A stretch of DNA of 64,000 nt, from NCBI GenBank assembly GCA_002917775.1, contig KZ627161.1, forward strand, positions 638,417-702,416. The letters are read 5' to 3'. Origin of the DNA: Glaciozyma antarctica PI12. Taxonomy: Eukaryota; Basidiomycota; Microbotryomycetes; Kriegeriales; Camptobasidiaceae. The translations under genes were made by a program, and so were the position numbers. Positions 32,575 through 41,365 of the stretch are shown here, piece after piece (the first letter of the stretch is position 1; each line of letters opens with the position of its first letter). Under the pieces are notes generated by a model that saw only the letters and a list, made by a program, of their open reading frames with translations, ran no database searches and was not told the origin of the DNA.

Positions 32575-35500
32575 TTGTTTAGAAACTACGGCTGTATTTT
32601 ACGTACATCTACAATCCCTGGAAAGCGAGGCGAGGAGGAACAGCAGCGCGTGCGGGAAGGGGTTTCGGAGAATTTGGAGGCCGTCACCACAGAGTTGTCT
32701 CAGTTCCTTTCTCCTCCTCCTCCTGCCCTCTCGTCAAGTAACAGACGAGGAAGTTTAACCTGGCACTACCCTCGGCTCGCCCCTCTCCAGCTCAGGCTCG
32801 TACCACGCCAACTTCGCCTTTAGGAAGCGCCCCGCTCATCGCGCTACACCGCCCTTCGTCCTCCATCGAAGAGCTCGACCGCCCTCCCTTCCCCGGCAAC
32901 GACAACGCTCCTCACGCCAATAGGGCTGGCCTCACTCAACCTCGCGCTAGGATCAACGAGGCTGTCAAGCGGAACAAGTCGAAGGTGAGTCGAGGTCCCG
33001 CTCCCGAGCCCCTCAGCGGCAATTTTTGGACAGTGGTGCCGCGCGCGATGAGAGGGCGTTCCCACCTGCTGGGCTGGCAGTGATTGGTACGCACGGAGGG
33101 AAGGGAGGGACAGCGCAGACTCGGCCTACGCCATGTGTGTGACGATCGTTCGACGGGAGCAAACATCGGTTTTCGTTCTCAAGGGGGGCCTGGCTGCTCC
33201 CCTCCTCCCCTCCAGTCCTCGCCTACGCTCCTCCAAAAGAGCAACAGGGCTTATTAGCACACTATCCTTATCAGGCACGGTCAAGAACTGAGCGCTGACC
33301 AGTTCTCCCCTCTTCACCACTCCTCAGGAACCCTCCTCATCCACCCCTCCTCCCCTTCCCCCAAAGTACATGACCACGCCCATTCACGCCCGCTTCTCAT
33401 CTGTATCCGACGCTGCCATGCCCGCCAACCCCAACGACTACGATCAGCGCCAATCGCTCGCAGATCCTTACGCCTCTCGCCACGACGACGCCGCTCACCT
33501 CGGCGGCTTCCGTCGTCCTTCGCCCGACATCGAGCCCTGCCTCCTCCGACCCTCTTCGCGCCCAGTTTCAAGACTATGATGGCGATTCGAACCCTGGCTC
33601 TCGTCGCGAGAGCTTCTTGGAGTCGGACCTAGAGATGCGCAAGTATCAAGGCCTCTCGGCGTCAGGCGTCGCGGGCTACCAGGCCGTCGGTCCTGGCGAG
33701 ATCTCGGAGCCGGGAAGCCCGACTCAGGGTGAAGGCTACGAGCGGAGCAACGAGAGCGGGAGCAGTGGGACCAAGGTCGACCAGGCGGGACGCAGCGGTC
33801 GCCCTGTGACGATGAGCAGTGATGGGAGCTACGACGCGCGGGACCGCACGAGCGGACACGCGCATACGGTACGTTCGAGTCTCATCTCGTTGGCGACGGG
33901 ACACTGACTTCCTCTCGCTTTGGCAGTCCGAATCTGGTCACATCGAGGGCGACTACCGCAACAACTCGACTGGCTACGCCGACGCAGGTCTCTACCACCC
34001 CTCCTCCCCCTCGTCTGGCCGCTACCGCGAAGGCTCCTTCGGCCACGCCTCTGGTGTCGAGTCGGGGCGCGCCTCGACCATCGGAACCGACCACGGCGCC
34101 CCGAGCATCCCGTTCAACTCGTCCCGCGTCGCGCTCAACAACGACTGGCGCAACTCGTACGATCAAGGGAGCGATATTGGCGGAGGCGGACGCGGGAGGG
34201 CCATTTCGGAGGTCGCTGCGGGGAAGGAGGGCTACGGTCGCGCGGACGGGAGGCAGTACGACGACGAGATTGAGAAGCTGCAGAAGGAGCGGATGGCGGG
34301 CAGACCTACGCGGCCATTCCGCCTCACTCGCCTGCGGTTGGCATGAACGAGAAGTTCCCTGGAGGCGCGAGGGACCCTCCGACCGTCGTCATCAGCAGGA
34401 CGAACCGCCTCGAGTGGATCGACGGTGTTCGCGGCATCGCCAGTATCATCATCTTCACGCACCACTTTGCCGATCTCACCTGGTCGGAGCGCTTCCCCAA
34501 CACTCTCGCCGTCGGAAGTATCGAAGGATTCCTCAGGTGCGTTTCTCGTTTCTCCTTTGCACGCAGCGACTGACGGTTTTCTCGCTCACGCAGGAACGGA
34601 CAACTCGCCGTCGCCATCTACTTCCTCCTCGGTGGTCGAGTCCTCGCCGCGTCGTTCCTCAAGTCCGCCTTCACCGTCCCCAAAGCCCCCGTCGTGCACG
34701 GCGACGACGAGCCCGAGAAGCCAGCCCCCATCCTCAAGGTCGCCGGTCCTCGCTGGCTCTCCCTCTCCTCGTCCCTCTTCCGTCGATCCATCCGCCTGGC
34801 CTTCCCCGCCGTCATCGTCGGCTTCATCCAGTGGAAAGTCTGCGTCGACGGTCTCATGAACACGACGATGATGGCGCAGGAGCTCGTCCTCGCTCCCTCC
34901 GCCCTCTGGGTCCCGAGTTGGTGCCAGATTGGCGACTTCTCCGGCTTCCTCCGGTTCACCCTCGACCTTTTCACCGAGCAGAACCACCAGTACATGCTCG
35001 TCGTCGGCAGCGCGCTCTGGTCGACGTACGACCAGTTCTGGGGATCCGTCCTCGTCTACATCGTCGCCGCCATGCTCGCCCCTCTCCCCGTCCGCGGCAG
35101 ATACTCGCTCTACCTCACGATTTGCGTTGCGCTCTGGTGGGTCAGCAGCCCCAACATGCTGTACGTTCCTTTCGATCTCGTTCTCGCGCATGCTTTTTTC
35201 TAACGACTCGCTCGGCAGGTACATGCTCGGTCTTTGGCTCGCCGACGTTCACGCCGTCGGCTACATTCGCAAGATCCAGGACTCGTGGAAGCTCACCGTC
35301 TTCATCGAGGCCTGCGCCATGGGCCTCGCTCTGTCGTTAATCGCCGGAGGACGTCAGGTGGCCACTCCCGCCGATAAAGCTTTCGCCAGCGTCACCGTCT
35401 TCAACGGCAAGTACAGCAACGACGCCTCGCTCCTCTGGCCTCAGTACATGCTGGCGAGCAACTGGTGCGTCGCTCTTTCTCCTCTCCCCTCGTCTGCGCC

Positions 35501-38009
35501 GCTGCTGACGACTCGCCTCGCTCTCGCAGGATTCCGGCGACTTCTATCCTCCTCTGGGTCGAGCTCAGTCACGCGATGCAGTGGTTCATGAGCTGGGGTA
35601 TCTTCGTCTGGATCGGAAAGGTCTCATACGGGTTCTACCTGATGCAGTTCCTGACCATCTACGGCCTGATGCCTCACCTCGTTCTCTACTTCAACAGCAG
35701 GGGCTACACGTACTGGGACAACATCATCCCGACGTACATCCTCTGCCTCATGTTCAACTTCTTCATCGCCTGGTACGCTCATTCGCCTCGTTGCGACTCT
35801 TCGACGCTGACGTTCGTACTCGTACTCGTAGGATTTCCTACCACCTCCTCGACCGCGTCGGACTCAAGCTCGGCAAGGCTATCTGGGACGGCCTCTTCGT
35901 CACCAAGCCCAACAACCTCGGCGCGCTTCCCATGAAGATGGTTCGCCACTTTATCGACATGATCGTCCACGGTCCTGGACGCACGATTCGCGGCATCGGC
36001 AGCGGCTCCGCCACCAAGTACACCAACTTCCGCAGCAGCCTCCACACCCTCATGAACTGGCGCACGCCCACGACTCGTCCCGCCGTCCCCGATCCTACCG
36101 ACCCCGAAGTCCTCTCCCAACTCCACTCGACCCGCTGGACGACCGACCTGTCGCCCGACAAGGAGGCCATGCGTACGCGCCGCCTCCTCAACGCGCAGAG
36201 CTGGGCTTGGCTCCCTCACCTCTTCCTCATCCCCGGCCTCACCGTCGTCTGGGTCATCTACCAGCCGACCGGAAGGTGGACGTACGACGCCCTCACGTTC
36301 TCGACCTTCTGGCGGTTCATGTGGGTGCTCTCGCTCCCCAACTGCCTCTTCGCCTGGTTCGGCTTCATCACTCCCGACATGATCTACTCAGAAGCGGTCA
36401 TGGACAAGAAGCCCGTTCACCGCGAGTACATTCGCAACTTCTTCATCGTCCTCGTCACCAAGGGATCGAACGAGGCCGCCGTCCGTCGAGGATACAACAA
36501 GCTCCTCAAGCTCGAGAAGTACCACCCCTCCGTCAAGGTCGTCGTCCTCACCGATGAGCCCTACGTCTACCCCGATCTTCAAAACGTCGTCTGCCCCAAG
36601 TCGTACAAGTCTCCTCTCGGTGCGTCTTCGTTTTCGCTACTCTCGCTGCGTTCCGTCGCTGACGCCTCCCACTTTGCAGGCAAGGCAAAGTACAAGGCTC
36701 GCGCGCTCGATTACTTCCGGTACCACGTCTCGCTCGGAGTTTACGACTGGATTCTGCACATGTACGTCTCGTTCGACGCCGTCGTTCTCCCGTCTACCGC
36801 GCTGACGCTGTGCTCATCAGGGACGAGGAGTCTGTCACCGACGGCGAATCCCTCCGCCACTGCATCGAGTTCATTCGCTACACGCCTCATCACTTCGGCC
36901 AAGGCATCATTCTCTACAACGGAGAAGGCTTCTGGGAGAACTGGTATTTCACGGTCGCGGACGGCATTCGAGTCGGAGACGATCTCGCGCGCTTCCACTT
37001 CCAGAACTCGGTTGTCCACCGCCCCGTCTTTGGAGTCCACGGATCCTTCCTCATGACGAACGGAGAAATGGAGAACGAGTGCACTTGGTGAGCTCTTTCT
37101 CGCGCGTTGGTGGATCGCGGTTGCTGACGATCGCTCGCAGGGATTTTGGATCGCTCGCCGAGGATTTCGAGTTCTCGCAGGACGCCTGGCGCCGTGGCTT
37201 CACTTCGGGTCGCATTCACGGTGTCGTGCGCGAGCAGAGTCCCGTCACGCTTCGCGATTTCCTCAAGCAGCGTCGTCGTTGGTTCATGGGTATTGTGAGT
37301 GTTCTGCTCGCGTCTGTTTAGCCGCAGGACTGACCTTCTGCGTTCCTCAGCGCGACATCAAGGGACTTTACGGTCTCCCGCATCTCGCCATCAACCTTTG
37401 GATCGTCGGAGTGTAGGTCGAAGCTCTCGACGCGTGCCGAAGACCCGCCGCTGACCTTGCCTCCTCGCACCAGGTTTACGCTTTCGGTTACCATCGTCAA
37501 CTTGCCCCTCGGATTCATCAACTACACGCTCACGCCTCTGTGGGTTGCCGTCTCCGCCAACTTCTGCTTCATCACGTTCTTCGTGAGTAGCTCCGTTAAA
37601 CTTTCGTTAGGACTGAGCAGTTCGCTGACTCGAGCTTGTGTTGCAGACGCTGTACCTCTGGGGCATCCTCTTCCAGGGTTCGTTCAGCGGTTCCTTCCTC
37701 GTTGGCGTTGCTCGCTCGCTAACCTCGCCGCCCGCAGAGCTCGACTTCGGACAGACTTGGTGGAAGATCCCGATTCACTTGGTCTGTGCGATCGTGATTC
37801 AGCGTGCGTCGTCCTTCTACCAAAGCGATAACACTCAGCTGACGACCTTGTTCATCAGCTTTCGCCTCCGTTGCCGAGGGACTCAGTGCCATTTGGGCCA
37901 TGTCGTCCGAGGACTTTGGCAAGGTGCGTCTCGCTTTCGTCTTCCGCACGTTTTGAACGTTTGCTGACTTGCGTGCTCCCCGCAGTTCGAGGTCATCACC
38001 AAGAGGTAA
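32575..38009 (+). CDS. Acyltransferase-3 / GT2 glycosyltransferase fusion membrane protein
   Basis: A Ser/Gly-rich N-terminal region (SPLGSAPLIALHRPSSSIEE; RRESFLESDLEMRKYQGLSA) leads into an acyltransferase-3 domain (PF01757 type) starting RLEWIDGVRGIASIIIFTHH at 34405. It has about ten spans and includes GKVSYGFYLMQFL. After a linker come two spans and a GT2 domain: VKVVVLTDEP, the DxD-like MDEESVTDGESL (36765-36850), AEDFEFSQDAWRRG, the QxxRW motif in KQRRRWFMG (37265-37290) and C-terminal spans. The end is FEVITKR with TAA 38007-38009. Motif order fits egghead-like GT2 enzymes. It presumably makes and O-acylates a sugar product at a membrane (inference). The start at 32575 depends on a predicted 53-nt intron. 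Two apparent single-base frame breaks lie at about 33531-33540 and 34296-34302. Confidence 0.75.
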
Positions 38010-38391: not shown

Positions 38392-41365
38392 ATGGCAAGC
38401 GGACAGGACAGCTCACGTTTCGCGTCGGGAACGAGCACCCCACGCAGTATCGACAGCACCTCCTCGACTCAGGGGCGCTCTGCGAACGAAGGTACCTCCC
38501 TCTTGGGAATCGCAGCGGTCGAGTCGGACGGCGCGGTGGTGGACTATGGAGCGACGGGCAAGGCTTCGAGCTCTGAGGGCACTGGTGCGTACACGGGAGG
38601 GGCTCGCGCGGAGGAGGGGGAGGAGGAAGCTGACGCGAACTTGCGCGCAGCTGCTCTGGCGTCGCTCCCCACGCGGTTGGCACGCTCGGCTTCGATTGCG
38701 CGCAAGGCGGAGCGAAGGGAGAAGCGGTCTGCCAAGATGCGCACGCTGCAGACGAGGATGCTGTACTACGTGCCGGTCTTGGACTGGCTGCCGGCGTACA
38801 CGCTCAAGGCGTTCGCTGGAGACGTTGCATCAGCTTTCACTGTGAGCCTGTTCTCCACACTCCTGGCTGGAGAACCACGTGCTGGAGCTTCGAGCTAAGC
38901 GCGTGGACGACGCCCTGCAGAGCCGCCACTGACTTGTTTCCGTACTGCAGATGACCTCGCTCATCGTTCCTCAATCAATGTCCTACGCGACAAACCTCGT
39001 TGGCATCTCCCCTATCAACGGTCTCTTTGGAGCTGCGATTCCTCCGATGATCTGTGAGTCTTGTGTCGATCGTGCGTTCGAACGTACCTAACACGCCTTC
39101 GCAGATGCGATGCTCGGTACCTGCAGGCAGCTGAGCGTAGGACCTGAAGCCGCCCTATCGTTGATCATGGGCGAGGCAATCAGGAAGTACGTCGCCGAGG
39201 AGTCGCACGCCCATGGAGGTCTTTCCGACGCCGAGAAGATGAAGATCTCGCTCACAGTGGCGACGGTTATCACGTTCGAAGCTGGGATCATTACGTTCGT
39301 GTGAGTACCACTTTCGGTTGCAAAGGAGCCGCTCACTGACCTTGATGCTTTGACAGGCTCGGCATCCTGCGATTAGGATTCTTGGACGCAGTTTTGAGTC
39401 GCGTACGCGAAGCTTTCGCTCCCTCGTTCGAGTTGGCGCTCACATCCTTCCTCTCAGGCTCTTCTGCGAGGATTCATCACGGCTGTCGGAATCGTCATCT
39501 TCATCGCTCAGCTCATTCCCATCCTCGGCCTCGAACGCATGCTCGCCACTTCTCCACCAGTCGACACGGTCCTGGAGAAGGTCTCGTTCATCGTCCGAAA
39601 CATCCACCGCGTCCACAAGCTTACGCTGGCCGTCTCTCTTGGCGCCCTCACCATCCTCGTCCTCGCCAAGATGTTCAAATCGCGTCTTGTTACGCGCAAA
39701 GGATTCAAGTGGCTCGCCTTCGTTCCCGAGGTTCTCGTTGTGGTTATCGCTTCCACCGGTTCGATCCTCTTCGTTTGCTGTTTGCGGACGTCGCTGACTT
39801 GGTCGTTCTGCAGTTCTCACTTGCGTTTTCGACTGGGACGAGCGAGGCCTACAAGTCCTGGGCAAGGTCTCGGCAGGTCAAGCTTCGCTCGCCATCCCTT
39901 TCCGTGGAGCTGGAGTCTACCTCAGGGAATGCCTAGGGACTTCGACCGTCATCGCAATCCTAGGCTTCCTCGACTCGATCGTCGGTGCTAAAGATTGCGC
40001 GTCTCGCTACAACTACCCGATCAGGCGAGTTTCTCCCCATTCGCTCGCACGCATAACACTCGCTGATGACCTTCGTTATAGCCCAAATCGAGAGCTCGTC
40101 GCACTCGGAGCAGCCAACGTCGCCACGTCCTTTGTCGCGGGAACCCTCCCAGGCTACGGATCGATTACGCGCTCTCGGCTCGCTGGAAGCACTGGCGCGA
40201 CGACCCAGATGACCTCCCTCCTCACCGGCGCTTTCGTGCTCTTCGTCACCTTTTTCCTCCTCGGCTTCCTCTTCTACCTTCCCAAATGCATCCTGGCGGT
40301 CATTATCTGCGTCGTCGGCGAGTACCTTCGACAGTGAGCTTCCTCTGGCCTCTGCTGACCTCCTTGGTCGTGCAGTGTTCTCCATTCTGGCCGAGTTCCC
40401 TCACGACGTCAAGGTCGGTGAAGTCTGCCTGGCTGAACGAGGCTTTGCTCACTCCCATTCTCGAGCAGTTTTTCTGGAAAATGCGCGCCTGGATTGACGG
40501 AGGCCTCATGGCTTTGACCTTCCTCTTGACTCTGTTCGTCAGCGTCGAGGTGAGATCTTTCCTTTCGTCTCAAGTGCATGCTGCTCACGCGTACTGTGCA
40601 GGTGGGCATCATCATCAGCGTCGTCGTTAGCATCGCTCTCTGTATTCGGGAATCAGCCGCCATGCGGATCCGAATTCTCGGTCGTGTCCCGGGGACGTCC
40701 TTTTTCGAGCCTCTGGACGACGACGAGGGAGACGATCCCAGCGAGGAGATTCCTGGAGTGCTTATCGTGCGGCTGCGCGACGTGTCGCTGACGTTCGGTG
40801 AGCTCTCCTTTACCCCAGCCTTCGCATTGACACTAACTTTGAGATTTAGCGAACGCTGGCGCGATGAAGGAGCGGTTGAGGCGCCTCGAGCGGTACGGCA
40901 AAGGCCGGCATCACCCATCAGACCGCCCCAGGCGCGACGAAGCCTCCGTCGTCATCTTCCACCTCGCCGACGTCGAGGGTGAGCTCCACTCTCTCTCCTC
41001 TCCCCGATCGCTGTGCTGACTTTGTGGAATCGATAGATATTGACGCTTCGGCACTGCAGCTCATCTTGGAGGTCGTCGAATCTTACGTCGCGCGGCACGT
41101 CTTGGTGAGTGGCTTGACTTGCGTCTTGACAGCATCTCGCTGACCGTCGCTCTCCCTCAGGTGTACTGGACGCATCTTCAGCCTCAAGCTCGGGCTCGCT
41201 TGGCCAAGGCTGGCGTGTTGGCGTTGTCGGGCGATGGTAGGCTCCCTTTCGCACTCGTCAAAGAGGCCCTGCTGACGCACTTGCGCAGAAACTCATGTGC
41301 AAGCCACCGTCCAGGCTGCGCTGAACGCCCTCAACGACACCATAATCTCGGTCCAGCAGTTCTAA
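38392..41365 (+). CDS. SulP/SLC26 anion transporter with STAS domain
   Basis: Moves sulfate or a related anion across a membrane. The Ser-rich cytosolic N-terminus from ATG 38392 is followed by YYVPVLDWLPAYTLKAFAGD and SLIVPQSMSYATNLVGISPI (span-1/2 signature, near 38950), CRQLSVGPEAALSLIMGEA, TVATVITFEAGIITFVLGIL, RGFITAVGIVIFIAQLIPIL, AILGFLDSIVGAKDCASRYN and ELVALGAANVATSFVAGTLP. The C-terminal STAS domain contains ASVVIFHLADVEDIDASALQ (40950-41060) and ends at TAA 41363-41365. The domain order and length (about 770 residues) fit vacuolar or plasma-membrane fungal SulP proteins. Several short introns with CTGAC branch sites. Confidence 0.88.

Follow-up and report, generated by a model that had tools for sequence, protein, structure and literature searches.

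Glycosyltransferases of family 2 (GT2) carry the catalytic motifs DE, ED and QxxRW, and egghead, one of these enzymes, consists of a GT2 domain only. For acyltransferases of the acyltransferase-3 (AT3) or TmAT type, the sections of PMC9558356 available to us describe R/K-x10-H in helix 1 and RxxR in the first cytoplasmic loop as functional motifs, give the signature VxxFFx(I/V/L)SG(F/W/Y), and list SGNH and alanine-racemase domains as the commonest fusion partners, a fusion to GT2 not being named there. R14 and H25 of OafB, which have the same spacing as R-x10-H, are called essential in the available part of PMC9833829, and a second conserved His in helix 9 is described in that of PMC2824669.

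We analyzed a window of 64,000 nucleotides from Glaciozyma antarctica PI12 (contig KZ627161.1, positions 638,417 to 702,416; coordinates below are those of the window), in which a gene on the forward strand at 34343..38009 encodes an AT3 domain followed by a GT2 domain in one protein. This order in one gene, as put forward by the original prediction, was well supported by the splice model, Pfam matches, full-length homologues and a tree of GT2 domains. At the level of sequence, the locus is one reading frame with both domains, its catalytic motifs are kept, and the family clusters together.

Gene model and domain content

The interval 34343..38009 splices into 14 exons, from the ATG at 34343 to the TAA at 38009, and yields a stop-free product of 965 aa; its 13 introns are GT-AG throughout and 53–65 nt each. 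The named motifs, the exons and their in-phase junctions were all recovered, including the Met of 'MDEES', which is split by the intron at 36762-36820, and the QRRRW assigned to a GT2 enzyme. Acyl_transf_3 (PF01757) matched residues 24-419 with 52.2 bits against a Pfam cut-off of 31, and Glyco_trans_2_3 (PF13632) matched residues 703-906 with 101.5 bits against a cut-off of 27. A homologue from Meredithblackwellia (P0002) is 83% identical to the window protein over 100% of its length, so the fusion in the window lies far beyond chance. The features of the core are as follows, the coordinates of the AT3 domain and of R-x10-H having been converted by hand from the splice model.

34343..38009, forward strand: conserved two-domain core, 14 exons, 965 codons plus stop (splice model, full-length homologues)
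34412..35838, forward strand: AT3 domain, PF01757, spliced over exons 1-5
34430..34465, forward strand: AT3 R-x10-H motif, R30 to H41 (motif search on the splice model)
35832..36619, forward strand: one exon leading from the AT3 end over the linker and two hydrophobic spans into the beginning of the GT2 catalytic domain, with TDEP at residue 657 (splice model)
36748..37652, forward strand: GT2 domain Glyco_trans_2_3, PF13632, spliced over exons 6-11
36822..36833, forward strand: GT2 DEES motif (splice model, alignment)
37160..37165, forward strand: GT2 ED motif, in AEDFE (splice model, alignment)
37268..37282, forward strand: GT2 QRRRW motif, QxxRW (splice model, alignment)

Exon 5 (35832-36619) covers residues about 418-680 without interruption, taking in the final hydrophobic stretch of AT3, the linker and the TDEP region of the GT2 part, and there is therefore no start and stop between the two domains. 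A start and stop at that place, which the original prediction had named together with two separate transcripts as speaking against it, is contradicted in sequence by a single open linker exon.

The proposed ends of the gene equal those of the splice model exactly; the start, in contrast, is probably too late. Ten relatives (P0001, P0003, P0005, P0006, P0008, P0010, P0011, P0012, P0014 and P0025) have 264–292 extra residues ahead of the AT3 motif compared with the window model, and all ten matched the DNA upstream of it, at least partly.

33521..34342, forward strand: DNA homologous to the N-terminal extension of the ten relatives (translated matches), with a GT-AG intron-like gap at 33869-33926 and frame changes

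Nine of the relatives matched about 33521-33904, 33900-34316 and 34274-34537, with the relatives' own order kept but the reading frame going from 2 to 3 and back to 2 within the searched stretch; P0025 matched only the last two parts. The first frame change fits the intron-like gap, no GT-AG intron was found by eye at the frame changes near 34.28 kb and near 33.52 kb, and the frame of the ATG at 34343 is open upstream only as far as 34274. Either errors of assembly or a genuine defect of this strain may lie behind these upstream frame changes. Because the relatives' extension has homologous DNA at about 33521-34316, the gene probably starts upstream of 34343; a start at 34343 may still apply, since the annotated models of P0002 (964 aa) and of P0016 from Atractiella (970 aa) lack the extension.

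Distribution and descent of the fusion

As to how widespread the fusion is, a question raised by the original prediction, both Pfam domains are present in 46 of the 66 homologues found, and the arrangement is not peculiar to the Glaciozyma genome. In the two full-length homologue searches, scoring was confined to the 7,997 and 7,993 candidates with the most words in common, and absence from Ascomycota or Agaricomycetes is therefore not inferable from them. Named sources include Rhodotorula, Microbotryum, Sporobolomyces, Puccinia, Phakopsora, Melampsora, Mixia and Cystobasidium, and further Calocera, Ustilago, Sporisorium, Powellomyces, Geranomyces, Fimicolochytrium and Paraphysoderma. By taxonomy, Meredithblackwellia belongs to Pucciniomycotina, Ustilago to Ustilaginomycotina, Calocera to Dacrymycetes, Powellomyces to Chytridiomycota and Paraphysoderma to Blastocladiomycota. 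Rhodotorula toruloides holds the full protein (P0008). An alignment search for more distant fusions gave 49 matches and no additional named phylum.

Within the Glaciozyma genome, P0002 as query found only this locus, exon by exon (one copy), PF01757 matched only at this place, PF13632 gave two further, weak matches elsewhere (26.9 and 23.3 bits), and a Glyco_transf_21 match is present; these searches read exons singly, and other genes may be missed. A search with the GT2 part only gave 294 proteins, and among the 120 listed were many chytrid proteins with only GT2 domains listed, plus a rotifer protein. The latter (P0082, Brachionus; GT2 only) shares 44% identity with P0002 across 403 aa of its GT2 half, and it may be either the animal egghead or a transferred gene.

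The tree of GT2 domains contained 49 rows, namely the window together with 27 fusion and 21 non-fusion proteins chosen from the full-length and GT2-only searches, with P0066, P0079 and P0125 left out. Among the rows labelled as fusions, P0046, P0047, P0049, P0054 and P0055 have models without the first AT3 helix motif; P0049, P0054 and P0055 have no precomputed AT3 domain, yet align to the AT3 region. All 28 fusion rows, together with the non-fusion P0069, P0070 and P0074 (588, 428 and 458 aa), were separated from the remaining rows by a branch with 100/99 support, and P0069 seems to begin in the tail of AT3. The fusion label needs three changes on the tree, the number forced by the starred branches, and a single change suffices in 0% of bootstrap trees. 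The tree program also gave a warning that long branches, including that of P0049, are joined to each other and that these joins may be spurious. A single origin of the fusion, followed by losses or accompanied by truncated models, may account for this pattern. The fusion is real and widespread, and its family is probably old in fungi.

The three exceptions inside the fusion cluster, which lack a listed AT3 domain, could also be taken, along with the single-domain homologues P0037, P0041, P0043, P0044 and P0045, as a sign that the locus comprises two separate genes or a chimera of assembly or annotation. However, P0069, P0070, P0074 and the single-domain rows from metagenomes may be truncated, one stop-free exon crosses the linker, and the halves are joined in homologues from many genomes. 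We rejected the two-transcript or chimera explanation on the open linker exon and the independent fusion homologues, and regard it as very improbable.

Three further observations concern individual homologues. The Paraphysoderma paralogues P0038, P0040 and P0042 perhaps form one local cluster (the longest contig is 94,870 bases for all three); two of the three keep R-x10-H, and the third has Ser there. In P0064 (Puccinia), a partial AT3 region with Asn at the R-x10-H position is joined to PF01595, perhaps through a gene-model error. The metagenome protein P0066 has a long N-terminal part without a Pfam match, an extension that differs from AT3.

Possible activities of the two halves

Of the 66 homologues, 44 hold DEES as well as the AT3 motif DG-x-RG, and motif counts were taken over these 44. 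Of them, 40 retain R-x10-H; on the GT2 side, DEES is present in 44 (being a selection criterion), ED in 44 and QRRRW in 43, P0031 lacking it. The AT3 half also has DxxR and, at window residues 129-132, RSIR, which we placed as the RxxR of the first cytoplasmic loop; R127, R128 and R131 of P0002 are invariant in a 15-row alignment. In fold, the AT3 half resembles HGSNAT when compared with VIA-align; Foldseek alone gave no HGSNAT among its best 50 rows, and an NCBIfam scan of P0002 gave no match. Hydrophobic spans flank the GT2 catalytic domain on both sides. In the fold comparison, the matches of this half to hyaluronan synthase, cellulose synthase and PcManGT are equally good to within one Z unit. 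The half is egghead-like by the names given in the sources and synthase-like by fold.

We favor, with a probability of about one half, a polytopic beta-hexosyl (probably mannosyl) transferase that would also acetylate its own product, formed by an egghead-type GT2 fused to an AT3/TmAT acyltransferase. Coupling of sugar transfer with acylation, which we infer, would agree with the retained catalytic motifs and with the folds. Given a cytosolic N-terminus and the usual ten helices of AT3, a number assumed here, the linker and the GT2 domain would be cytosolic as well, and the sugar donor, like acetyl-CoA, would come from the cytosol. The GT2 half would attach a hexose in beta linkage, most likely mannose donated by GDP-mannose, to an acceptor bound to the membrane, such as a glycolipid or a glycan that is short or still growing; the name egghead, given to enzymes that transfer mannose from GDP-Man to glucosylceramide, suggests GDP-mannose as donor and a glycosphingolipid as acceptor. 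The AT3 half would take acetyl from cytosolic acetyl-CoA via a transmembrane pore and place it onto that same sugar at the luminal or outer face, far-side delivery of this kind having been proposed for OafB and HGSNAT, and the fusion would hold both steps on one product.

Several observations weigh against this reading. The egghead link depends on the source-given names of P0003 and P0050 ('egghead') and P0066 ('beta-1,4-mannosyltransferase') and on the general character of egghead sequences, and fold cannot set which sugar is transferred. A search for a solved relative of the GT2 part by sequence gave none, its 16 matches being at chance level (best E 0.14). On the AT3 side, the [ST]G-aromatic signature reads VAIYFLLGGR in the window, with Arg for the aromatic residue, and chytrid and smut rows have SGR in place of SG-aromatic; of 20 fusion rows, 18, among them the window, have Gln in the column presumed to hold the second AT3 His, and two have His there. 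R-x10-H is broken in P0030, P0039, P0042 and P0048, which lack its histidine.

This last point would also suit a protein whose two domains act on different substrates from one chain, or whose AT3 part serves as scaffold or regulator of GT2, as would the 31-row alignment, in which all invariant columns listed except one fall from residue 528 onward and so within the linker and GT2 half, a distribution that the N-terminal truncation of several rows may distort. The retention of R-x10-H in most fusions and the invariant arginines of P0002 argue against such an arrangement, and we consider it unlikely.

The fold equally allows a processive synthase, in which GT2 would polymerize a beta-linked glycan, for example beta-mannan, and pass it through its own membrane channel while AT3 acetylates the emerging chain; the match to hyaluronan and cellulose synthases and the spans on both sides of the catalytic domain are in keeping with it. 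However, QxxRW is not specific to processive enzymes, as it also occurs in non-processive ones of the egghead type, and the family is also present in chytrids and rusts, where no such mannan is known to us, so that we hold this alternative possible but doubtful. In its favor, red yeasts secrete mannose-containing exopolysaccharides according to published abstracts, and some of these are beta-1,3/1,4-mannans; a beta-mannan structure for Rhodotorula was not found in the available parts of PMC12733683, PMC12876142 and PMC12153088.

Should the coupling of transfer and acetylation that we favor prove real, we would know of no earlier enzyme that both forms a sugar linkage and acylates it within a single chain, and the result would suggest that several fungal phyla have a surface glycan that we have not seen described. 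As a tentative extension, the protein could be an ancient single-chain fungal assembly line that synthesizes a beta-linked glycan or glycolipid, carries it through the membrane and adds acetyl to it en route; chytrids, rusts, smuts and red yeasts would then have in common an acetylated surface glycan that is so far undescribed. The original prediction knew of no characterized fungal protein with this domain order, and among the open-licence papers listed by our searches we likewise found, by title and start of abstract, no functional study of an AT3-GT2 fusion.

The next gene downstream (about 38393-39500, forward strand) resembles a transporter of the sulfate-permease family, with PF00916 matching one exon at 39104-39301 (32.8 bits).

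Comparison with known systems

The fusion shares DEE[ST], ED and QRxRW with the GT2 beta-1,4-mannosyltransferases of the egghead and BRE-3 type, and differs from egghead by an added N-terminal acyltransferase and linker. With the AT3/TmAT acyltransferases OafB, OatA and HGSNAT it has in common PF01757, R-x10-H, DxxR, RxxR and an HGSNAT-like fold, whereas SG-aromatic is SGR or GGR in the fusion. The processive GT2 enzymes, namely hyaluronan, cellulose and chitin synthases, resemble it in the GT2 fold and in membrane helices on both sides, in contrast to an identity of 7–14% among the rows listed; we know of no AT3 domain in these synthases. Cas1p of Cryptococcus is likewise a fungal acetyltransferase with multiple transmembrane spans that serves a surface glycan, as described in the available part of PMC2824669, but its acetyltransferase is fused to a PC-esterase and not to a glycosyltransferase. 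Databases already list the fusion under names assigned automatically, for example 'glycosyltransferase family 2 protein', and we see it as a variation on known kinds of enzyme, not as a new one.
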